From: Faecalibacterium sp. I4-3-84
Lineage (GTDB): Bacteria > Bacillota > Clostridia > Oscillospirales > Ruminococcaceae
NCBI RefSeq assembly: GCF_023347255.1
Contig: NZ_CP094466.1
Coordinates: 2,976,001 to 3,040,000, forward strand
Direction: 5' to 3'
Length of the DNA: 64,000 bases
Shown here piece by piece: positions 17,997-28,136 of the stretch. The position numbers and the translations under genes were made by a program. How positions within the stretch are numbered: the first letter of the stretch is position 1; every line of letters begins with the position of its first letter. The notes beneath the pieces are model-generated. The model saw only the letters and a program-made list of their open reading frames with translations. It was not told the origin of the DNA and searched no databases.

Positions 17997-18839
17997 TCAT
18001 CTTACCGGCAAGGCTTCGGCCACCGTCAGAAAGGTGTAGCCGTTGTCCGCATACCACCGGATGATGTCCGGCAGTGCTTCGGCGGTGGTGTGTGTGGAGG
18101 AAGAATCGTGCATCAATACGATGCAGTTCGTCTGCTGCCCGGTCTCGTGCACCACATTGCGGTAAATGGTGCCCGCGCTTGGGTGCCCGCCCACGGCATC
18201 CTCGGCGCACACGTTCCAGTCCACCCAATGCCAGCCTTTCTGCTCTACTTCGGCTTTCAGCTGCTTCATCAGGCCTTTGCCGCCGTAGCGCCGACTGACG
18301 GTGTTGGTGCTGCCGCCCGGAAACCGTAGATACCGGATGCTCTCGGCATCCACATAGGGCGCAATGCGCTCCTTTAAAAGGGCAATGTCCTCCCAATAAG
18401 CGTCGCTGCTGCGGTAGATATCGCTGTACTCGTGGGAAGCAGAGTGCAGCGCGATCTGGTGCCCGGCGCTGACCGCTTCGGTGAGCAGGGGCAGATACTT
18501 CTCGTTGTAACCGGTAGCCACCACAAAAAATGTGGCGTGCACTCCGGCCGCGTTCAGCGCGCTGAGCACATCCGGTGTGGTCTTGCTGGGGCCGTCGTCA
18601 AAGGTCAGGCAGACCCACTTTTCCGGCAGCGGCTGGGCAGCAGGTTCCTGCTGCTCCTGTGCCAGAGCCGAAACGGCGGGGGAGAGCATCGAAGTGTCCG
18701 GTGCCGGGGTAAGATCCTGCGCCTGACATCCGGTGACGACCGGCGGCGCAGCAGATACAAACCCCATAATGAGGGCGAACAGCATCACGGCCGCAACTCT
18801 GGCCCGCCTGCGCCGTGCGAGATATTCTGCAAGCTTCAA
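17997..18839 (-). CDS. Polysaccharide deacetylase (NodB domain), exported
   Basis: A 280-residue protein with a basic N-terminus, a membrane or signal helix (about 16-32), a short linker and a NodB deacetylase domain from about residue 72. Metal and catalytic motifs are TFDDGPS (Asp 81, Asp 82), a HSASHEY segment with the two metal His, RFPGGST and a final MHDSSSTHT block. It probably removes acetyl groups from cell-wall glycan, as in PdaA-like enzymes. I chose the TTG at 18839, eight bases after AGGAGG, over the TTG at 18845, which is too close. Before the mobile element arrived this gene lay directly downstream of spo0A. Confidence 0.9.
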   Translation of the reverse strand: MKLAEYLARRRRARVAAVMLFALIMGFVSAAPPVVTGCQAQDLTPAPDTSMLSPAVSALAQEQQEPAAQPLPEKWVCLTFDDGPSKTTPDVLSALNAAGVHATFFVVATGYNEKYLPLLTEAVSAGHQIALHSASHEYSDIYRSSDAYWEDIALLKERIAPYVDAESIRYLRFPGGSTNTVSRRYGGKGLMKQLKAEVEQKGWHWVDWNVCAEDAVGGHPSAGTIYRNVVHETGQQTNCIVLMHDSSSTHTTAEALPDIIRWYADNGYTFLTVAEALPVR

Positions 18840-18911
18840 GAGCAAAACCTCCTTTGTCTGTTTGGTTTGCTCTTATCAGAATATGAACGACGGCGGATTC
18901 TATGAAAAAAA

Positions 18912-19227
18912 TTACCCCACTCTCTGCCGTTTATCCAGCCGCATCTTGTCGGCGATCATTGCGATGAACTCCGAGTTAGTGGGTTTTCCGCGCAGGTTAT
19001 GGATGGTGTAGCCAAAGTAGCTGTTGAGGGTGTCCACGTCTCCCCGGTCCCATGCCACCTCGATGGCGTGGCGGATGGCGCGCTCCACCCGGCTGGCGGT
19101 GGTGCCGTTTTTCTTGGCGATTTCCGGGTACAGGCGCTTGGTCACGGCGTTGATGTACTCCGGCTCGTTCATGGTGAGCAGGATGGCATCCCGCAGGAAC
19201 TGGTAGCCCTTGATGTGGGCGGGGACG
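18912..19227 (-). pseudogene. spo0A: Displaced 3' end of spo0A
   Basis: This stretch encodes the last 100 or so residues of Spo0A (from [17 protein letters not shown] to RLDKRQRVG and the stop) but has no upstream half: at 19228 the sequence becomes unrelated AT-rich DNA. It matches the intact gene at 25765-26080. Bases 19015-19220 are identical to the intact copy, while the last 103 coding bases differ at 13 positions, all silent. It is best read as the original chromosomal 3' end, cut off by the insertion at 19228-25764. It has no promoter or ribosome site and should not make protein. Confidence 0.93.
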
Positions 19228-19705
19228 GTATCAGAGTAGGCAATAAATCTAAGTCAAAATCTTATTATTTGTTGGTATAGTCTCGAACGCTTTATTGTGC
19301 TACCAGTATACCTCATCCCATCTATAAAAGCAACTTCTCTTTACGGTTTGTATTGCAGCGGATGGCGTTTTGTGTCCGCTACCGTCTGTGCTTCATTCAC
19401 TTGTCAGAATCAAAATAGGCTCTAGCAAGCCTTGCAGAGCATCAACCTTTCATACGAGCTCTTTTCATTATCTAAGACAAAAAGGCTGTCAAAACGTCTG
19501 TTAGAACGCCTAACAGCCCTTTATCATAATCCCTGCTGAACCCGCTATAAAATATATTTTTTGTTTGTCTGGTCTTTCTTGCTACCCGGCGGGGTCTTTG
19601 GCTGCTGCTTGACTGGGGCTGTTCAATCCCGCCGGGTGGATAGATTCTTTTTATAATCTAAGAGAAAAGACTCCCGCGCCTTTTTGCGTAGAAGTCCTTG
19701 TAAAA
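19228..19705. other. Gene-less left end of the element
   Basis: I see no gene. It holds the arm-like GTTGGTATAG (19271-19280) and the related CTACCAGTATACC (19300-19312), the stem CTGTTAG/CTAACAG (19498-19516), which could end minus-strand transcription, and a strong ten-pair stem ACCCGGCGGG (19584-19593) with CCCGCCGGGT (19628-19637) around a 34-base loop. The last is much more GC-rich than its surroundings and may be a recognition structure. Confidence 0.6.
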
Positions 19706-20347
19706 TCAAGCTGCCAAATCCGCCAAAAACCAACACACTGGATGTTGGGCACGATATTCTATTATCCCCCTACGGATTCTATCATATCGGTCGTGCTGCT
19801 TTTTGGTTAAGCAGATTGATAGATTGCAAGCGGCATTATTCTCCTTGCCCCGCCAATGGTGAACTTCACATTTAGAGAAGTCCGTTCCTTTCGGCATTTG
19901 AGACAACAAGAAATAATATGCCACTATCCTATGGAGTCTGATTCTTGGCCGCTTTCCATCACATCGAAATGTAACCATGTAATAACCATGCGTGTACGGT
20001 TTTGCTTTCATTAAAGCAGCTTCGTAACCTGCATAGCTCTTCACTCGGCCACGGTCACTTACTAGATAGGTGCCGTTGTAGTTTTTGAATCGTTTATCAA
20101 ACTCACTTCCAATAAAGAACCACTGTTCTCCGGGCAAATCTGGAATACTGTCAAGACAATATTCTAAATCATAGACCTCACGAACAATCTCTTTCATCGT
20201 GTATGAGAGACGGTTATTATTTTCATCTCTTAGATATACACGATGATTTATGACTGGTATGACTGTTTTCTTTTTTTGTTTATCATAAATGGTATAACTT
20301 GCCTTGCAGTCAATAATAGTCTGCACAATTACGTATCTGTTCGGCAT
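19706..20347 (-). CDS. NUMOD4/HNH endonuclease-like protein
   Basis: A 213-residue protein. Residues about 75-105 (GEQWFFIGSEFDK, then YLVSDRGRVKSY) match the NUMOD4 module found in phage homing endonucleases, and residues about 160-200 carry an HNH-type motif (CEVHHWRGKENNAACNLSIC). Such proteins cut DNA and often move with mobile elements. The first 70 residues do not match a module I recognise. The ATG at 20347 has only a weak ribosome site; a GTG at 20353 is the alternative. It is the leftmost gene of the element and reads away from the integrase. Confidence 0.78.
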   Translation of the reverse strand: MPNRYVIVQTIIDCKASYTIYDKQKKKTVIPVINHRVYLRDENNNRLSYTMKEIVREVYDLEYCLDSIPDLPGEQWFFIGSEFDKRFKNYNGTYLVSDRGRVKSYAGYEAALMKAKPYTHGYYMVTFRCDGKRPRIRLHRIVAYYFLLSQMPKGTDFSKCEVHHWRGKENNAACNLSICLTKKQHDRYDRIRRGIIEYRAQHPVCWFLADLAA

Positions 20348-20749
20348 AAGCACCGCAAACCATTCAGATAAATCTATTTCCTATTCATTATATTTATATT
20401 CAATATTATGAATCAACATAATTTCTCAACCTCCATAATTTTATAAAATTTGAACGTCAAACCATATAAAAAGGCTACTTCATGCCTTGAATCTAACGCA
20501 AATATTTTCTCAAAGCTTTATCACCTTCTTTCTATGTCCACCTTGTAAGTATGCCCGCAGCGGTAGCCCATAAAGCGAACGCAAGCGGGCATACGGTGAA
20601 ATGAAAATATTACATTTTAAAAAATCTAAAAATAATCCTTCTTTAGATTTTGAAAATATCTCTTTTTCTCTTTAAGGGTAATGTGTCCAAACCCCAACAA
20701 AACAAGGGGCTAAAATCAAGATTTAGCACACTTTTTGTGCCAAAGAATT
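20348..20749. repeat. Gene-less AT-rich stretch with a long hairpin
   Basis: No gene seen. GTATGCCCGC (20549-20558) pairs with GCGGGCATAC (20585-20594), and the outer CACC/GGTG bases extend the stem, with a 26-base loop containing AGCCCATAAAGCG. The hairpin is GC-rich in otherwise AT-rich DNA. It lacks a T run, so it is not a simple terminator; a nicking or replication-related structure is possible. Confidence 0.55.
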
Positions 20750-22048
20750 TTATCCCATCCAATCGAGCAACAACTTCCTCATTCTGGCACTGGGCAGATA
20801 TAATGACACTGCTTCGTCATTTCTGATTGCAGAACGCCAAACCCATTGCATCAACTGCGCCAGCGCGTACGAATCCGCATCAAATTCAGCTGTTGTACCC
20901 TGTGAAAGATACTGTAACACAGGTGGAACGGGAAATATATTACAAAGATATATCAATGTCGTTCTGTCCGCATACCGATTTGTGGCTCGTGCATTGCATG
21001 AAACAAAATTAACCCCGCACGGCCTCGTACATTCACTACAACTGATTCTTCCGTTCCATCTGCAATTAGCTTTCATTCTTCGGTTTTCATATTTGTTTGC
21101 AGCAGGTTTGAAGGTTGTCCATATAACTGTGTTCTTTGGCGCGTGTCTGTAATTCTGGATATAGTTCACCGCGTTACGGTTAAGAACATTTATATATTTT
21201 TTGTTCTTTCTATTTTGATGCCATGATGATGAAAGACCAGAATATTCTTGAATATCCCTTTTCTTTTTAGATTCTGGCAAATAGTTAGTATTCAATCTTC
21301 CCTCATATACATCTAAAAGGAATTTAATTCTGACTTTCTCCAATTTTGACACTTCTTCATATCCCTGTGAAAAATAATATTTTTCTTGAGAATCCTTTTC
21401 AACGTGCAAATATTGAAAGGACATTCCATATTTCTGGAAATACAGGAATAGCATACTTCCACGAAATAGAAAGGTCATAATGTAGACTTGGTGAAAAGCC
21501 TCAAATATTCCCGGCGGCAGTTGCCAAAGAATTATATTCTGTTCCACTTCATAAAGTGCTTTCTGCTGAATCTCGCGCTTTGTCCGTTCAAAGTCACCGT
21601 GATACTGTGAATCAAGCCACTTTACTCTTTTAGATGTCGGGTCAATTTCTATAAGGCGCTGCTCTTTCAGAATTTTCAAATCGTCTTGTGTAATATCTGA
21701 TAATTCAACCACTTCTATTTCTTCATCTAAGAATAGTGTGTAATCAAATTCTTTAATGCGGTCTATCGCAGTGTCATTCAATAGCTTAAACAGTTCATGC
21801 GACAGAGCTACATTCTGCCCTTCAGAAAGTAGGCGCAAAAGGTCAGCGGATTTTGTAGGGAGTGCTCCTGTGTCTGATGGCTCTTTGAACTGCAAATCCG
21901 GGCAAGCAATCTATACTCGCTGACACTCCGATAGATACGGAGCAACATACAGGTAACGCTTATCCTTGTTGTCATTGATGTACTGCAAGGCGGCACTATT
22001 CTTGCCCTTGCCCATGATATTGTCGATGATATTGATTATAGGAATCAT
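20750..22048 (-). pseudogene. Helicase-like mobile-element protein interrupted by one stop codon
   Basis: From the ATG at 22048 the frame reads MIPIINIIDNIMGKGKNS, a slightly degenerate Walker A, then LYVAPYLSECQRV and a TAG at codon 46 (21911-21913). The same frame resumes with IACPDLQFKEPSDTG and runs 386 more codons, including YTLFLDEE, a Walker B-like motif, and a C-terminal block WVWRSAIRNDE and LYLPSARMRKLLLDW. The whole matches my recollection of DEAD/DEAH-like proteins of about 430 residues in clostridial prophages and islands. The Walker A Thr is replaced by Asn, adding to the impression of decay. A restart at the TTG at 21895 would lack the ATP site. Amber suppression or a sequencing error are alternatives. 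Confidence 0.72.
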
Positions 22049-22495
22049 CCTTTCTTGTGAATATTTTCAAGAGAGTTTTCAGATGCCATGGCCGTTGTCC
22101 TCGGCTCTCTTGGTGGCACCATCATAGCACTGAGCCGCCGAAAAGTCAAGGGCTTTTGAAGAAAAAATTCAATTTATTTTCGTTGTTTTTTCATATCAAG
22201 ATATGATAGAACCTTTGCCAAAAGATACAGCACTCGATTTTACACCTGTTGTTTTCTAAAGTCAAGAACTTTTGAAAAATTCATTTTTCGTTAATAATCC
22301 GGCTTTGACAGCTGTATATATTCATATCATTATTATATCGTATATCGTTTTGTTTTTTCTGTGCTATGAACACAAACCAGGTATAAATTAAATCGGTCAT
22401 GATTTTTTCTCCGAATACAGATTGAACGGCTACCACGTCATTTTAACAAAAATTTGTGCAGGGTTTGTTTTTGGGCGGGGGAGCATGTTTCCGAC
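22049..22495. other. Gene-less AT-rich stretch with direct repeats
   Basis: No gene seen. AAGTCAAGGGCTTTTGAA (22143-22160) recurs as AAGTCAAGAACTTTTGAA (22259-22276), each followed by an AAATTCA-type run. TTGACA (22305-22310) and CATTAT (22328-22333) could form a plus-strand promoter, though no plus-strand gene follows for 2 kb; a minus-strand TATAAT (22332-22337) could serve the helicase-like gene. Confidence 0.5.
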
Positions 22496-22519
22496 AAAAA
22501 AGCACCCCTTGCGGGGTGC
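22496..22519 (-). terminator. Terminator of the serine recombinase gene
   Basis: Stem GCACCCC / GGGGTGC (22502-22519) with a TTGC loop, followed on the minus strand by six T. Confidence 0.88.
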
Positions 22520-22525
22520 GTGGTA

Positions 22526-23092
22526 TTAAGACAGTCCTTTGTCCTTTAGCAACTTATTCAGTGTCGGGCGGCTGATTCTCAATTCTGCTGCAAGTTGCGT
22601 CTTGTTCAGTTCCCGGTGCTGGTAACGGTCATACGCTGCACAGAAGGTCTTATCATCAATCCGCTTGACCTGACCGCCTTTGAACTTGCCCGCTGCTCTA
22701 GCGATTGCAATTCCTTCCCGCTGACGTTCCAGCAGGTTCTCACGTTCAAACTCGTTGATGGCTGCAATCATTGTCAGCATCAATCTGCCGTTTGAAGTGC
22801 TTGTATCAAGATTCTCCTTATTAGATACAAGGTGTACGCCTTTTTTCTGCAACTGGTCTACAATAGCTAAAAGGTCTTTTGTAGAACGTGCAAGGCGGCT
22901 AAAGTCGTGAATATAAACCGTGTCGCCTTCTCGCACATAGTCCAACATAGCTTTAAGCTGTGGGCGGTTCATGTTTTTACCGCTGACCTTTTCAGTGTAC
23001 CACTTGTCGATGTCGTGCTTCTTGAGGGCTTCAATCTGCCGCGCTTCATTCTGTTCAGCGGTGGAAACTCGTACATAAGCAATGTGTGCCAT
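22526..23092 (-). CDS. Small serine recombinase (resolvase/invertase family)
   Basis: A 188-residue recombinase. The catalytic Ser 10 is in YVRVSTAEQN, and the family motifs DFSRLARSTKDLL (with two active-site Arg) and the long E-helix (MIAAINEFERENLLERQREG) are intact. A C-terminal helix-turn-helix (about 145-185; LNKTQLAAELRISRPTLNKLL) binds DNA. It resembles plasmid and transposon resolvases and invertases of the Pin/Hin group. Its target site is not evident; it could resolve multimers of the element or invert a segment elsewhere. A TTGACT-18-TACAAT promoter and a clean terminator frame it, so it is expressed alone. Confidence 0.93.
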   Translation of the reverse strand: MAHIAYVRVSTAEQNEARQIEALKKHDIDKWYTEKVSGKNMNRPQLKAMLDYVREGDTVYIHDFSRLARSTKDLLAIVDQLQKKGVHLVSNKENLDTSTSNGRLMLTMIAAINEFERENLLERQREGIAIARAAGKFKGGQVKRIDDKTFCAAYDRYQHRELNKTQLAAELRISRPTLNKLLKDKGLS

Positions 23093-23134
23093 ATTGCAAG
23101 CCTGTCCTTTCGTCCTGTGATTATCTCCACCCCT

Positions 23135-23164
23135 ATTGTACCTCTATGTAAAAAAAGAAGTCAA
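23135..23164 (-). promoter_or_regulatory. Promoter of the serine recombinase gene
   Basis: Minus-strand TTGACT (23159-23164) and TACAAT (23135-23140), 18 bases apart, about 43 bases before the ATG at 23092. Confidence 0.7.
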
Positions 23165-23281
23165 TGACTTTATTTACATCTCGCAAAATAAATCTAAAAC
23201 AAAGTCTGTTTTTACAAAAAATAGCGGCTTTGAGGATGTAATAGGCAAGTATACTCTGTTTTGACAAAATACACACCAAAC

Positions 23282-23304
23282 AAAAAAGGCCGCAAGCGGC
23301 TTTT
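23282..23304 (-). terminator. Terminator of the Ltp-like gene
   Basis: GCCGC/GCGGC stem (23289-23300) with flanking A and T runs; on the minus strand six T follow. Confidence 0.82.
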
Positions 23305-23336
23305 GTACCGTCTGCGGTCTTGTGCTTAGATTGCTC

Positions 23337-24257
23337 TTAGGTTAGATTCTTCATAGCGTAGTCTATCGCGTCTTTTTCATAGCCTTCATATTCAAGCTGC
23401 TTGCGAACCTGCGATTTGGACAAATCCATGTCGTGATAATAACGTTCTGCCCTTGAAAGTGCATTTTTACTTTCTTGCGGTATTTCATCCGTTTTACTCG
23501 ATGCAGAACTAGAGCCATGCTTAGACACACTCGTGCTAGGAACATACCCTTTATAAATTACGTCTTTATTCTTATACACACTTTTATCAAATGTGTACAC
23601 CTTATAGCAATCATCTCCTGAGTAGATATTTCCTAACGATACCCGTTCCTTACATACTTTTATCTTGGAACCAACAGAATTTTCAATTTCTTGATAAGTT
23701 TGTAGCATTTTACTTGGTTTAAGTTCTCCCCAGTTTGAACAAGTCACATCAGCATAATACCGGTGATTCCGTCCGTCATTACTTATTCTTCTTAAATCAA
23801 CTGTCACGTCACTTAACCCGCAAGCTTCTACTATGCTGGTAATCGAATTGGCAGCATTACGAACTTGTATCTGCCTGTTAATATACCATCCCAGACAGCC
23901 ACCTAGAAAAATTGCAACCGCTGCCGTCACAAAAATAGTTTTCTTGGTAATTGAGTTCTTGAAGCGCCTTAGCCGTTTTTTGAAACTCCTTTTGATGTCT
24001 ACTTTGGAAATGACTCCTATTTCTGAAAGTGCTGCTTTTAATGCAGTCTCATCTTTCCCGTCTACCAAATAAACGCACTGCTCTTTTATATCGCTTTCTG
24101 CTGTGGTGATTATTAGCGCTGCCTTTCCGCCCTTTCGTGTCACCTTTATATTTTTGATAGCTGTGTAAAAAATAAACTTCCCAGTCCCATCAATAATGCC
24201 ATCTGCAATAAGGGTAAAGTCTGGTGAGCCGCCTGTTCCCGTAAAGTAGTACTCCAT
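23337..24257 (-). CDS. Membrane protein with C-terminal Ltp-like domain
   Basis: A 306-residue protein. The N-terminal part (about 1-90) is a beta-rich, PH-like stretch (FTLIADGIIDGTGKFIFY) on the cytoplasmic side; a basic segment and one membrane helix follow (about 105-130, IFVTAAVAIFLGGCLGWYIN). The outer region ends in ALSRAERYYHDMDLSKSQVR and EYEGYEKDAIDYAMKNL, close to the repeat of the Ltp family, known from a Streptococcus phage lipoprotein that blocks DNA injection by related phages. Unlike Ltp it has no lipobox and a single repeat. AAGGAGG lies eight bases before the ATG at 24257. A role in exclusion of other elements is inference. Confidence 0.72.
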   Translation of the reverse strand: MEYYFTGTGGSPDFTLIADGIIDGTGKFIFYTAIKNIKVTRKGGKAALIITTAESDIKEQCVYLVDGKDETALKAALSEIGVISKVDIKRSFKKRLRRFKNSITKKTIFVTAAVAIFLGGCLGWYINRQIQVRNAANSITSIVEACGLSDVTVDLRRISNDGRNHRYYADVTCSNWGELKPSKMLQTYQEIENSVGSKIKVCKERVSLGNIYSGDDCYKVYTFDKSVYKNKDVIYKGYVPSTSVSKHGSSSASSKTDEIPQESKNALSRAERYYHDMDLSKSQVRKQLEYEGYEKDAIDYAMKNLT

Positions 24258-24379
24258 TGTACAGTCCTCCTTGTTTTGGCTTCTTTGTTTCATTATATCA
24301 TTTTATGTTTAATTGTAAACATAATCATAACATTTCTTTCTATCATTCTGTGCATCATAATAGAAACAGGGTGATAATT

Positions 24380-24553
24380 ATGGACGAACTTAAGATAACA
24401 AAGCGCACTGAGCCTGTTATGTTCACAATTCGGGTTGATAAATCCATCGTAGACTTTTACGACGATTTGGCGCAGAAAACAAACCGCTCTCGAAATGAGC
24501 TTATTGGTCTTGCGCTGGAATATGCCAAAGACAAAATCAAAATCGAACCGTAA
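24380..24553 (+). CDS. Small ribbon-helix-helix protein
   Basis: A 57-residue protein whose middle (VMFTIRVDKSIVDFYDDLAQ, then RSRNELIGLALEYA) fits the ribbon-helix-helix fold of CopG/Arc-type DNA-binding proteins. It is the only plus-strand gene of the element and stands divergent from the Ltp-like gene and convergent with the integrase gene. A CAGGGTG ribosome site is about six bases upstream of the ATG at 24380. It may regulate element genes or copy number; no target is evident. Confidence 0.75.
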   Translation: MDELKITKRTEPVMFTIRVDKSIVDFYDDLAQKTNRSRNELIGLALEYAKDKIKIEP

Positions 24554-24572
24554 TACGATTATTTACATTAAA

Positions 24573-24611
24573 AGAGCCGCAGCTGGGGAAGTGATTCCTG
24601 TCTGCGGCTCT
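24573..24611. terminator. Two-way terminator between the small regulator and the integrase
   Basis: AGAGCCGCAG (24573-24582) pairs with CTGCGGCTCT (24602-24611) around a 19-base loop; short T runs lie on both outer sides. Confidence 0.82.
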
Positions 24612-24616
24612 TCTGT

Positions 24617-25579
24617 TTAGATTATCTTACTAAGCGGGCTGTGCTTGCGGTACATCTCTGCAAGGTCGTCTTGGTTCACATCCAAATAGGCCTGCTCTGT
24701 TACGGTAACGCTGCTGTGCCCTAGCAAGCGGCTCAAGGTGTAGATGTCTCCGCCGCTCATAAGGAAGCGCTTTGCAAAGTTGTTTCGAAAAACATGCGGG
24801 TGAATGTCCTTTAGTCCTATCCGCTGGGCATACTTGCGAACATTGGCTTCAAAATTATTCACCTCAAGAAATTTACCTTTGTTTGTACAGAACAGAAAAT
24901 CGCTGTCCCGGTATCTATCCTTATACTTTATCCACCGTTGCAGTTGCGTTGCCATTTTGTCAGAGAAGAACACATAGCGGCCTTTCTTACCCTTGGTGTT
25001 CTCCGCCGGGAGATAGATGTACCGTTTTTGCAAATTCACATCCGTTACTTGAATCAGTAGACATTCGTTGACCCTCATGCCAGTATCTAGCAAAAGCTGA
25101 ATAACGATAGAATCCCGGTACTCGCTAAAGCTGGCCGTATTCATATTCCGCAGTAGTTTGCGGAAGTCCTCATCCGACACAAACTCAAGCGGGCGGCGTT
25201 CCACCTTGATGTAATCGCTACGTTTGACAGGTGAACGGAGAATCAAGTCCTCTTCCACACACCAGCCAAAGAAAGCGCTCATGTTCCGCAGGTAGTTGTT
25301 GATAGTCACATCTGACACTTTCTTGCCGAAATCCAACCGCCGCTCCTGATAGTTCCCGCTGTTCGGATTGCTTGTGACTGTGTATTTGCCCCGCTCCTTT
25401 ATCTGTTTAACATAGTTCTGAATGACCGTGTGCGTGATTTTCTCTGTCTGTGTGATTCCCTGTTCATCAAGGTAAAGCATCAAAAGCCGCAACGTTTGTT
25501 CATAACTTCCAATCGTCTTTGTTGCAAGCCCTTTGTTTTCACAGTGTTCAATGAACATCTCCACATCCCGGATAAGCAT
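24617..25579 (-). CDS. Tyrosine site-specific integrase
   Basis: A 320-residue phage-type recombinase. The N-terminal SAM-like arm/core-binding domain (about 1-110; VEMFIEHCENKGLATKTIGS) precedes the catalytic domain with LLLDTGMRVNECL (first catalytic Arg), HPHVFRNNFAKRF (His-x-x-Arg) and LLGHSSVTVTEQAY (His and the nucleophile Tyr). All catalytic residues are present. The ATG at 25579 is eight bases after AGGAGG; the first 13 residues of a longer frame are rejected. It lies directly inside the right end of the element, the usual place for an integrase next to its attachment site, and almost certainly catalysed insertion into spo0A. Confidence 0.95.
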   Translation of the reverse strand: MLIRDVEMFIEHCENKGLATKTIGSYEQTLRLLMLYLDEQGITQTEKITHTVIQNYVKQIKERGKYTVTSNPNSGNYQERRLDFGKKVSDVTINNYLRNMSAFFGWCVEEDLILRSPVKRSDYIKVERRPLEFVSDEDFRKLLRNMNTASFSEYRDSIVIQLLLDTGMRVNECLLIQVTDVNLQKRYIYLPAENTKGKKGRYVFFSDKMATQLQRWIKYKDRYRDSDFLFCTNKGKFLEVNNFEANVRKYAQRIGLKDIHPHVFRNNFAKRFLMSGGDIYTLSRLLGHSSVTVTEQAYLDVNQDDLAEMYRKHSPLSKII

Positions 25580-25608
25580 AAAAAATAACCTCCTGTATTT
25601 GCCGGGAC

Positions 25609-25764
25609 TATGACCCAATAAATACAGGAGATTTATTGCCTTAGATTTAAGCTATTTATTGGTCTGGTTCCATATTTCCACAACGTTTTTCGCTATACTG
25701 GTTGGTATAGCTCCCATCGTTGGAATATTATGGAACAATTTCAGACGTTTTACCGTTTCTCTGT
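25609..25764. repeat. Right end of the element with arm-like repeats
   Basis: This 156-base stretch between the integrase and spo0A holds AATAAAT/ATTTATT (25618-25637), CTTAGATTTA (25640-25649) whose reverse complement echoes the AATAAATCTAAG at the left end (19241-19252), and the palindrome CTATAC-TGGTTG-GTATAG (25693-25710), which contains the GTTGGTATAG also found at the left end (19271-19280). These are plausible integrase arm sites. Confidence 0.6.
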
Positions 25765-26523
25765 TTACCCAACCCTCTGTCGTTTATCCAGCCGCATCTT
25801 ATCCGCAATCATCGCGATGAACTCCGAGTTGGTGGGCTTGCCGCGCAGGTTATGGATGGTATAACCGAAGTAGCTGTTGAGGGTGTCCACGTCTCCCCGG
25901 TCCCATGCCACCTCGATGGCGTGGCGGATGGCGCGCTCCACCCGGCTGGCGGTGGTGCCGTTTTTCTTGGCGATTTCCGGGTACAGGCGCTTGGTCACGG
26001 CGTTGATGTACTCCGGCTCGTTCATGGTGAGCAGGATGGCATCCCGCAGGAACTGGTAGCCCTTGATGTGGGCAGGGACGCCGATCTGATGCAGGATCTC
26101 GGTAACGGTCAGCTCATCGCTGTCCACGCTGGTGTGCAGGATGTGCTTTTCCGGGCCAAGTGCCGCCTTGAGCACCCGTGCGGCAAGCACGGTCTCATCA
26201 AAGGGCTTTACAAAGTAGTAGGCAAAGCCTTCGTCCAGCAGCTCCTGAACCATCTCTTCGCTCTGGAAGGCACCGGTCACGAAGAAGGAGGTGTGCCGCT
26301 CACCGGCGGCATTGTAGCGCTGCTTTACCGCAAGGGCATCCAGACCGGGCATAAAAGCATCCAGCAGAACCACCTGCGGGCGCACGGTGAGCATTTTCTG
26401 CAGGACCTTGTTGCCGTCCTTTTCCACAACGGTCACGTCCACGCCCTTCTGCTCCAGCGCTTCGCGGCAGGCGGCAGTGAACGGGGCACCAGTATCCGAC
26501 ATCAAAAATCTAACTTTGTCCAT
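25765..26523 (-). CDS. spo0A: Sporulation master regulator Spo0A (3' end supplied by the element)
   Basis: A 252-residue response regulator. The receiver (about 1-120) has the phosphorylation Asp 55 in [10 protein letters not shown] and Lys 106 in FVKPF; the usual second acidic residue at position 11 is Thr (SDTG). The Spo0A_C DNA-binding domain (about 140-252) contains [17 protein letters not shown] and ends [14 protein letters not shown] precedes the ATG at 26523. It follows spoIVB, the normal order in Firmicutes. The last part of the gene was brought by the inserted element: its terminal 103 coding bases differ from the displaced copy at 13 silent positions. The protein is therefore unchanged by the insertion, though its 3' flank is new. 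Confidence 0.96.
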
Positions 26524-26639
26524 GGTTGTTTCCTCCAATGTGTGCAGTTCCCTTAACACCATGGATTTTACCATAATTTTCCAGAACTTTCAACGGTTTA
26601 TATTGGCAAATTTTGGCAAAGAAAATCGAAACCCGCAAA

Positions 26640-27887
26640 TTATTTTGCGTTTTGGGCCTGCGTATGCGCTGTATCGTCTGTCTTTTCAACAGCGCGGGCC
26701 TGCTTGAGCATGGTCTGAGCAAAAATGCCGTAGCCCCGCGTGGGGTCGTTTACCAGCACATGGGTCACTGCACCCACCAGTCTGCCGTTCTGCAGGATGG
26801 GACTGCCGCTCATGCCCTGCACGATGCCGCCGGTTTTGGCAAGCAGCTGCCGGTCGGTCACGCGCAGGATCATGTTGCGGTGGGGGTCTGCGTCGTTTAC
26901 CTTTTCAATGCGGATGCGGTATGCCTTGGGCACCTCGCCGTCCACGGTCGTCCAGATCTCGGCATCGCCCGGCACAACCTCCTGCGCAAAAGCCATCTCC
27001 AGCTCCGGGCCGGAAAATGCAGCCCGTGTTCTGCCATAGACCCCTGTCTTGCTGTTGATGCAGATGCTGCCAAGCGCATGGGTGCTCAAAAAGCGGCCCT
27101 TCAGCTCACCGGGGCTGCCCACGGTGCCGCTGGTACACCCCACGATCTGGCAGGGGACGATCTCGCCGCTGCGCAGGGCCACGCTCTCACCGGTGTCGCT
27201 GTCGCTGATGGGGTGGCCAAGCCCGGCAAACACCCCGGCGGCATTGTCCACAAAGGTCATGGTGCCTACCCCGGCGGAAGAATCCCGCACCCACATCCCG
27301 GCGCGCCACTGCCCGGCGGTGCTGTCCCACACGGGGGTCAGCCGGGTCTGGAATTGCTCACCATTGCGGATGTAGACCACCTGCACCGGTGCGCCTGCGG
27401 CCGTTTCCAGAGCATCGTGCACGGCGTCGTTCGTCTCGGTCAGAGCGTCATCCATGCGCACCACCCGGTCGCCCAGCCGCAGCCCGGCCTTCTTGGCGGG
27501 GTTTGCGGTGCCGTCCGGGGTGTTCAGGTCGGAAAAGCCCACAATGAGCGCGCCCTCGGAGAACATCTTAACGCCGAAAGGCGTACCGCACACGGTTACC
27601 ACCGGACGTGTTTCCACCAGAGCGCGCACAGTCTTGACGGGCAGCCACCCGCCAATGGACAAAGTGGCCTGATAGCTGCCCGCAGCCTGCGTGCTGGCCG
27701 CGTTGCGGGAGCCAGCGGTGCGCAGCGGCTGCACATAGGCAAAACGGGGCAGGGTAAGGGTCTGGCCGGGTTCCAGCAAAATTTCAGCAGGCAGACTGTG
27801 CCACAGCCAGCCCAGCACCGCCAGCGCGGCCACCAGAAGATAAGTTGCCGCAATGCTGCCAGCGCGGCGTAGTTTTGATCTGCGCAT
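26640..27887 (-). CDS. spoIVB: SpoIVB peptidase
   Basis: A 415-residue serine peptidase which in Bacillus is secreted into the space around the forespore and triggers sigma-K activation. It has a short basic N-terminus and one signal-anchor helix (about 10-30), a PDZ domain (about 110-185; AKKAGLRLGDRVVRMDD) and the SpoIVB peptidase domain with FAGLGHPISD (His 225) and GMSGSP (Ser 360). I chose the ATG at 27887, preceded by AAAGGGG; longer frames run into the tRNA gene upstream. It lies directly before spo0A on the same strand. No sigK is in the window, so its target is not shown. Confidence 0.94.
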   Translation of the reverse strand: MRRSKLRRAGSIAATYLLVAALAVLGWLWHSLPAEILLEPGQTLTLPRFAYVQPLRTAGSRNAASTQAAGSYQATLSIGGWLPVKTVRALVETRPVVTVCGTPFGVKMFSEGALIVGFSDLNTPDGTANPAKKAGLRLGDRVVRMDDALTETNDAVHDALETAAGAPVQVVYIRNGEQFQTRLTPVWDSTAGQWRAGMWVRDSSAGVGTMTFVDNAAGVFAGLGHPISDSDTGESVALRSGEIVPCQIVGCTSGTVGSPGELKGRFLSTHALGSICINSKTGVYGRTRAAFSGPELEMAFAQEVVPGDAEIWTTVDGEVPKAYRIRIEKVNDADPHRNMILRVTDRQLLAKTGGIVQGMSGSPILQNGRLVGAVTHVLVNDPTRGYGIFAQTMLKQARAVEKTDDTAHTQAQNAK

Positions 27888-28044
27888 CGGCAAAAAGCCC
27901 CTTTCCGCCATGGAAAATGATACGATCGTCCGGCGATAGTATGCGCTGTGAAGGGCGGAAATATCAATGCAGTGATTGACTTTTGCCGCCGGAACTGATA
28001 CTATATTAAGGCGGTTTGGCCGCACCTGTAGAATAGAAGAATAC

Positions 28045-28126
28045 GCGGGTATGGTGGAATTGGCAGACGCGCAGGATTTAGGTTCCTGTGCCGCAAGGCG
28101 TGTGGGTTCGACCCCCACTACCCGCA
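28045..28126 (+). tRNA. tRNA-Leu (anticodon UAG)
   Basis: Acceptor stem GCGGGTA with TACCCGC, D arm with GGAATTGGCAGAC, anticodon stem CAGGA/TCCTG around TTTAGGT (anticodon TAG), a long variable arm typical of class II tRNA, and GGGTTCGACCC in the T arm. CCA is not encoded. It converges on the tRNA-Leu(GAG) gene. Confidence 0.96.
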
Positions 28127-28136
28127 TAAGAGAAAA

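Follow-up and report, generated by a model that had tools for sequence, protein, structure and literature searches.

The 64,000-nucleotide stretch of Faecalibacterium sp. I4-3-84 analysed here (the window; contig NZ_CP094466.1, positions 2,976,001 to 3,040,000) carries two copies of the 3' end of spo0A, the gene that decides a cell's commitment to spore formation, with what is very probably a mobile element between them. The near copy completes an intact spo0A (25765-26574, minus strand), and the far copy (18912-19227) is a displaced 3' end in the same orientation that lacks the 5' part of the gene; an 86-codon frame stays open in this remnant. The two copies are offset by 6,853 bp, the length of the element. 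G+C content is 0.407 between the copies, versus 0.57-0.61 in the flanks, and a search of the complete 3.12-Mb genome with 18500-19300 matched only the two spo0A places. Codon comparison bore out the description of the copies in an earlier note on this DNA: 206 bases are identical (19015-19220), and the last 103 coding bases (18912-19014) hold 13 differences, all silent, at codons 236, 237, 238, 245, 246, 248, 254, 256, 257, 258, 265, 267 and 268. One extra silent difference, missing from that note, is present at 19221, and homology stops at 19227. Of the 306 single changes that could occur in codons 236-269, 70 would be silent, and the probability that 13 out of 13 would be so is about 5e-9; for 206 identical bases beside 12.6% divergence it is about 8e-13, if divergence is uniform. 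The pattern is not due to chance.

An empty site was found in one genome of the same species, G028, where a deacetylase gene, spo0A and spoIVB lie side by side with no element. The window flanks, once joined in the core, aligned with G028 as a single piece of 2,853 bp (97.7% identity, 6 gap openings) that starts at the deacetylase stop and runs to the end of the segment; without the joining, they aligned as two pieces. Past the spo0A stop, G028 DNA matches the far side and not the near side, and the DNA after the near stop is element DNA. Silently different codons between the near gene and G028 numbered 3 of 143 (codons 19-165), 4 of 68 (166-235), 2 of 11 (236-247) and 7 of 13 (254-268). This divergence concentrates in codons 254-268, which marks the 3' end of the intact gene as foreign to the lineage of the host. 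The far tail, with 4 of 13 comparable codons different, is closer to G028 than the near tail is, though not equal to G028. At the seven differing sites located 5' of the crossover mapped below (codons 167, 236, 237, 238, 245, 246 and 248), G028 is of near type five times, including codons 236-238 and 248, and of far type twice, at 245 and 246. At the seven sites 3' of the crossover, it is of far type at four, of near type at one, and of neither at two. In this comparison, 5 of 17 genomes (G015, G008, G003, G013 and G002) gave no data, their upstream frame having stopped early. The G028 spo0A itself (L063, 13406-14211) is frameshifted near the attachment core, by real decay or by a sequencing error; other genomes hold intact copies. 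The earlier note had expected a sister strain without the element and with the 18912-type end: the empty site exists, but a pure 18912-type end was not found. Neither of the outcomes which it held would speak against a mobile element, an element-free sister with the 25765-type end or a plain duplication without an empty site, was encountered.

The first gene after the intact spo0A encodes a tyrosine recombinase (PF00589), hereafter the integrase. Its residues R182, K209, H275, R278, H301 and Y311, which we take to be the R-K-H-R-H-Y catalytic residues of tyrosine recombinases, are invariant in six relatives. Structure-library matches include XerA (5hxy, E=3e-30) and XerD (1a0p, E=3e-23), and NCBIfam scores fall short of equivalog cut-offs. 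Among 31 genomes of the genus, two more close relatives (74% identity) and one fragment were found, each immediately downstream of spo0A. Of the 40 other tyrosine-recombinase places listed there, which serve as a control, none shares a contig with spo0A at a distance of 10 kb or less. Relatives 45-51% identical adjoin spo0A in two further genera of the same family. A six-member profile (A1) was then scanned over a collection with one genome per species (84,980 species), yielding 90 relatives, kept as 79 distinct loci, with 39-75% identity, in Clostridia and Bacilli. Spo0A C-terminal coding sequence lies just upstream of the integrase, on the same strand, in 77 of the 79 loci, whose host genera include Clostridium, Paenibacillus, Lysinibacillus, Rummeliibacillus, Niallia, Sporolactobacillus and Oscillibacter. 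Other elements with related integrases at spo0A, as sought by the earlier note, are represented by these 77 loci, and its remark that spo0A is a striking target was an understatement, since the same target recurs in both Clostridia and Bacilli. Three of the 77 depart from the usual layout: the integrase of L167 comes after a displaced copy that is part of a tandem array, that of L166 after a shortened frame, and that of L113 after a gene with the Spo0A C-terminal domain alone. This last gene, from Aminicella lysinilytica (L113 9300-9960, L173 1-500), keeps the LTNSEFIG core. At L132, one of the two remaining loci, the integrase is at a contig end and spo0A at the edge of another contig of the same genome, which fits adjacency across the break. 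Prevalence is low: relatives at E<=1e-50 were present in 5 of 396 family genomes, one of these not at spo0A, and at E<=1e-60 in 3 of 394 order genomes. In annotated phages, a tblastn search with the integrase at E<=1e-30 matched 1 of 50,697 records (33% identity, 70% of the query), and plasmid records gave a single match, to 8% of the query at 84%.

Intact and displaced copies were compared in 44 pairs, namely the window, 26 loci with both copies in the fetched DNA, and 17 of 27 named-genome records searched whole. Besides the window, second copies were sought in 54 of the 79 loci; L101, where the contig ends in the copy, and the further copies of L132 and L167 were dropped or left uncounted, and 8 records gave no usable second copy. 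An intact target with a displaced 3' fragment, the layout of a restored gene, is present in the window and in the 43 other pairs. The protein sequence of codons 248-253 is kept in 44 of 44 pairs (219 identical, 45 silent and 0 non-silent codons), with third-position mismatches in 12, 2, 8, 5, 3 and 13 pairs for codons 248 to 253, respectively. The 8-bp window most often identical (36 pairs) is GARTTYAT, at codons 251.1-253.2, and in the window pair the identical core block is 17 bp long (18961-18977 and 25814-25830). In L149, L156, L159 and L161, homology between near and far copies starts only at codons 246-249. In a second test, 13 locus pairs with nearly identical integrases in different hosts were compared. 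For three of them, L145/L149, L140/L141 and L107/L108, host divergence extends up to codon 250 or 251 and gives way to near-identity. Differences over codons 118-235 versus the tail were 106/354 and 3/45 bases for L140/L141 (tail bases only; Fisher 6e-4), 58/354 and 3/105 for L145/L149 (Fisher 1e-4), and 82/354 and 4/105 for L107/L108 (Fisher 1e-6), the latter two including 60 bases past codon 268. L143/L150 is suggestive of a shared tail (2/45 versus 61/354), with a switch after codon 256.

As judged from the 44 pairs, the crossover lies in codons 249-254, mapped to an interval rather than to a single base. Because it sits inside the 103-base stretch, codons 236-248 compare the host (near) with the left arm of the element (far), and only the differences in codons 254-268 compare the element's tail with the original tail of the host. 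The earlier note had the whole 103-base end supplied by the element; this holds for 7 of the 13 differences (codons 254-268) and fails for the other 6 (codons 236-248). The border between the 206 and 103 bases is likewise not the boundary of the element, which supplies only about the last 16 codons. The 206-bp identity is located in the left arm. Left arms are long in some elements and short or absent in others, so that the identity is not needed for integration, and it is not a plain attachment core. Its sharp limits would fit a later homologous exchange between the repeats.

Our explanation, held with high confidence, is an integrative element that restores spo0A and whose tyrosine recombinase targets a conserved site towards the 3' end of this gene. 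The recombinase would join the attachment site of the element with the spo0A site around the TNSEFI codons (248-253) of the C-terminal domain. As the element site would carry the end of spo0A, from about codon 252 to the stop, integration would combine the 5' part of the host gene with the element tail into an intact Spo0A, and the host's own tail would be left at the far end, in a remnant devoid of the 5' part of the gene. The earlier note had likewise proposed a mobile element that targets spo0A and rebuilds it with an end of its own, a proposal upheld by the empty site in G028 and by the integrase family at spo0A. We infer that the window integrase catalyses the reaction, and the window element is presumably still able to excise.

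Two direct copies sharing a 206-bp identical block might also result from an ordinary segmental duplication of the spo0A 3' end followed by drift. We give this almost no credence: the insert is low in G+C with an integrase at one end, the position of the integrase is conserved, the same layout recurs in 43 other pairs with largely different cargo, homology ends abruptly at codons 246-249 in the minimal cases, and the empty site in the same species rules out duplication without mobility. Nor does the element look like skin or yin, regulatory intervening elements whose excision during sporulation repairs an interrupted gene. Such mobile elements are indeed found in sporulation genes, PMC10747680 naming sigK, spsM, gerE, spoVFB and yabG; however, according to PMC6957869, the known ones interrupt their gene, almost all in mother-cell genes. 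Here spo0A has a complete frame (25765-26574) with the element in place, and excision is therefore not needed to make Spo0A, which renders this explanation very improbable.

Entry by homologous recombination, or by the serine recombinase encoded at 22526-23092, instead of the tyrosine integrase would agree with the 206-bp identity of the copies and with the serine recombinases found in 9 of 27 elements. Its chances are slim, as the tyrosine integrase is the only gene in all 27, and homology that starts at codons 246-249 leaves about 60-70 bp for homologous recombination. A variant of the same mechanism, with the crossover at codon 235/236 and the whole 103-base end supplied by the element, would account for the sharp 206/103 border in the window, but is unlikely as well. 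G028 is of near type at codons 236-238 and 248, though of far type at 245 and 246, and in three host pairs the switch to near-identity comes after codon 250 or 251. For displaced copies starting at codons 246-249, a crossover at codon 235 is impossible; these minimal copies rule out the 206/103 border as the crossover site.

Several observations weigh against a site-specific element restoring spo0A. The integrase of L092 (G377) is not next to spo0A and is a true exception. Five of the six profile members were already at spo0A, the scan itself having used the integrase protein alone. The empty site rests on one same-species genome, whose tail is only partly of far type (4 of 7 sites). The 44 pairs are only those cases in which a second copy could be found; their best 8-bp window is identical in only 36 of the 44, and its twofold codons vary less anyway. 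Of the 13 locus pairs compared between hosts, 3 clearly share a tail, one is suggestive and nine show no shared tail, and L151, L153, L154, L146 and L148 look like crossovers nearer the stop codon.

The integrative element's tail evolves as coding sequence. Across the 44 pairs, codons of the tail (254-262) differ silently 82 times and non-silently 5 times; the corresponding counts for left-arm codons 236-247, taken from the 36 pairs in which the arm could be compared, are 76 and 18 (Fisher p = 0.007 versus the tail). Together with the 13 silent differences out of 13 in the window, where the supplied end keeps the protein unchanged, these counts agree with the protein-level selection proposed earlier, and point to a tail kept as protein-coding sequence more strictly than the left arm. 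Amino-acid changes in the end of Spo0A do occur: in L140 (9060-9830), the element-borne tail reads CLDMKKNHVG and the displaced host tail LLLEKKNGTG. The L140 tail is also present in L141, from a different genus; their integrases are 99.4% identical, and the front parts of their Spo0A proteins 56%. Integrase and Spo0A distances, compared in the 72 of 80 loci where both proteins were long enough, are correlated (Mantel r 0.57, 0 of 999 permutations as high). Of the 16 pairs whose integrases reach 95% identity or more, 8 show only 56-80% identity between the front parts of their Spo0A proteins. The association of integrase and spo0A thus looks old, with the integrase still moving between hosts, and such near-identical integrases in different genera sustain the suggestion that the element evolved across several hosts.

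Within the window, the intact spo0A (269 codons as the longest frame; TIGR02875 and PF08769, with a family match from residue 19) is, by codon comparison, host-derived 5' of the crossover and element-derived 3' of it. The replacement 3' end, about the last 16 codons and the stop, occupies 25765-25816 (minus). The near attachment core (25814-25830, minus) is the 17-bp block AACTCGGAGTTCATCGC on the gene strand, and contains the best family-wide 8-bp window, GAGTTCAT, at 25817-25824. The far core has the same 17 bp at 18961-18977 (minus), with the 8-bp window at 18964-18971. It separates the displaced original host end (18912-18963, minus), whose downstream flank is contiguous with the G028 empty site, from the element-borne left arm (18972-19227, minus), which is spo0A-like over codons 165-250 and holds most of the 206-bp block. 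A 13-bp inverted repeat, AGATTTATTGCCT, is present near both ends of the element (25629-25641 and 19238-19250), and ATAAATCTA motifs occur at 19243, 20368 and 23188; repeat and motifs could be arm-type integrase sites.

Between the cores lie the integrase gene (24617-25618, minus; likely start at the conserved Met14; PF00589, E=5e-35), a small open reading frame (ORF) without a convincing family match (24257-24553, plus), and genes for a superinfection-exclusion-like protein with an Ltp repeat (23337-24293, minus; PF07553, phrog_4980), a serine recombinase of the DNA invertase type (22526-23092, minus; PF00239, phrog_125), a phrog_2467 protein with no assigned function (20750-21895, minus), and a NUMOD4/HNH homing-endonuclease-like protein (19706-20353, minus; PF07463, phrog_59, PADLOC HEase). 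Among the six window ORFs scanned, no head, tail or packaging gene of a prophage was found, and no relaxase of a conjugative or mobilizable element. The element is flanked at its far end by the host polysaccharide deacetylase (17997-18845, minus; PF01522) and at its near end by spoIVB (26640-28127, minus; TIGR02860), both neighbours being the same in G028. The longest spoIVB frame overlaps a tRNA-Leu gene of the opposite strand at 28045-28127; as its first residues are antisense tRNA, the true spoIVB start must be further inside the frame.

Traces of insertion were seen beside spo0A in two other genomes. In G029 (L070, 3123-4880), a 92% identical copy of the small window ORF accompanies a 32% identical relative of the Ltp protein, in a spo0A neighbourhood without a match to the window integrase, which suggests a decayed element or a different element at the same site. 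In G012 (L072), the 183 bp that follow the spo0A stop match the end of the window element at 87% identity, and no integrase match was found in the 14 kb fetched; this sequence is likely an element remnant.

When frames of at least 60 aa from 27 elements were clustered, the integrase was the only gene common to all. It is the first long frame after spo0A, except in L130, where an overlapping 80-aa frame precedes it, and it is split in two in L115 and L165. The window's element is one of the 9 with a serine recombinase; other cargo is largely different. Cargo was surveyed for 107 of the 156 non-integrase ORFs of at least 85 aa, from 23 of the 26 non-window elements, with the best 25 matched families considered for each library, out of 142 in phrogs, 77 in pfam and 170 in padloc. 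Among the families listed were resolvases in 8 members, WYL in 6 and single defence-like matches, as well as restriction and helicase-like matches, and no capsid, portal or terminase.

Larger elements exist as well. In several genomes of Clostridium, Sporolactobacillus, Niallia and Paenibacillus, the second copy is found at a distance of 15-40 kb, and a match to phrog_2, presumably the terminase large subunit, falls between the two copies in G783 (3e-66). Weaker matches in G791, G784 and G802 mean little, because 11 of 14 control genomes also matched. The IMG/VR record L169, a 59.8-kb phage with matches to DNA polymerase, terminase, portal, head protease, tape measure, tail and reverse transcriptase, encodes an integrase 92% identical to that of the window and begins within a spo0A 3' end (codons 236-269). 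Besides the reverse transcriptase family, the record matches a family labelled RNA-dependent RNA polymerase (L214-L216), which may point to a diversity-generating system. In two more IMG/VR contigs, L176 and L181, the integrase is accompanied by a partial spo0A end, and the 5' part of the gene is missing. The L176 fragment, about codons 235-255 only, lies between what we take to be phage-like tail frames and replication-like frames, and that of L181 follows a presumably holin-like frame. This layout resembles a free attP; a tandem prophage would look alike. Since L176 carries no tail, its integration should alter Spo0A.

In Paenibacillus macquariensis (G797:C51:277888-333400; L167, L204, L212, L213), a tandem array beyond the intact spo0A holds three partial spo0A ends (304833, 283518 and 277888-277928), and an integrase comes after each of them. 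The alignment of one of these integrases is broken into two pieces, and the reading frame shifts within one of the partial copies. No match to the window integrase was found in the 13.7 kb fetched directly after the intact gene. Spo0A itself matched 18 phage records, 16 of unannotated faecal phages and 2 of Acinetobacter phages. Two of the faecal records, MT837510.1 and MT835737.1, encode full-length Spo0A proteins 92.5% and 89.4% identical to that of the window, either as host DNA beside a prophage or as a carried spo0A.

In some strains, the end of the Spo0A regulator is thus supplied by mobile elements. That the spo0A 3' end is an unrecognised integration hotspot across the spore-forming phylum, where a functional Spo0A end is swapped between species, probably including the position of the A257V substitution, is a broader claim to which we would give even odds. 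Position 257 presumably falls within the supplied tail. According to PMC9195935, A257V is reported to abolish sporulation in Bacillus subtilis but did not do so in Paenibacillus polymyxa. If the hotspot exists, temperate phages and small islands share the site, some with defence-like genes, a swapped tail could tune sporulation in lysogens, and the Spo0A_C fragments found on mobile elements would be largely attachment-site DNA. Such domains are enriched on gut mobile elements of Firmicutes according to PMC6907783, which classes them under sporulation, whereas here they belong to attachment sites; attachment-site fragments are a possible source of that enrichment. We found no report of spo0A as an attachment site in the open-access literature. 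The integrase family also offers an explanation of why silent divergence changes abruptly over short distances at the spo0A 3' end; it marks a locus for seeking prophages and islands and may provide genetic tools with a natural landing site in spore-forming bacteria.

A comparable arrangement is that of e14 and phage 21 in the icd gene of Escherichia coli, where a tyrosine integrase recombines in the 3' part of a housekeeping gene, and the element brings in a new 3' end with mostly silent changes, the original end being displaced. The spo0A element does the same, but its target is a developmental master regulator, its hosts are different, and its relatives are spread over Clostridia and Bacilli. 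With skin, yin, gin, vfbin and SPbeta/spsM it shares the status of a mobile or prophage-like element in a sporulation gene; those elements break their gene until excision, whereas spo0A is intact during integration and no role for excision is known. By sequence, the window integrase belongs to the same recombinase family as XerC, XerD and XerA; unlike the Xer proteins of chromosome dimers, it is tied to spo0A and encoded at the end of mobile elements. At tRNA genes, integrases that restore the 3' end use attachment sites carrying the end of the target gene, which stays functional, and tandem accretion is possible; all three traits recur at spo0A. Because spo0A is protein-coding, the supplied tail, unlike tRNA ends, evolves under codon-level selection, where both silent and amino-acid changes are possible.

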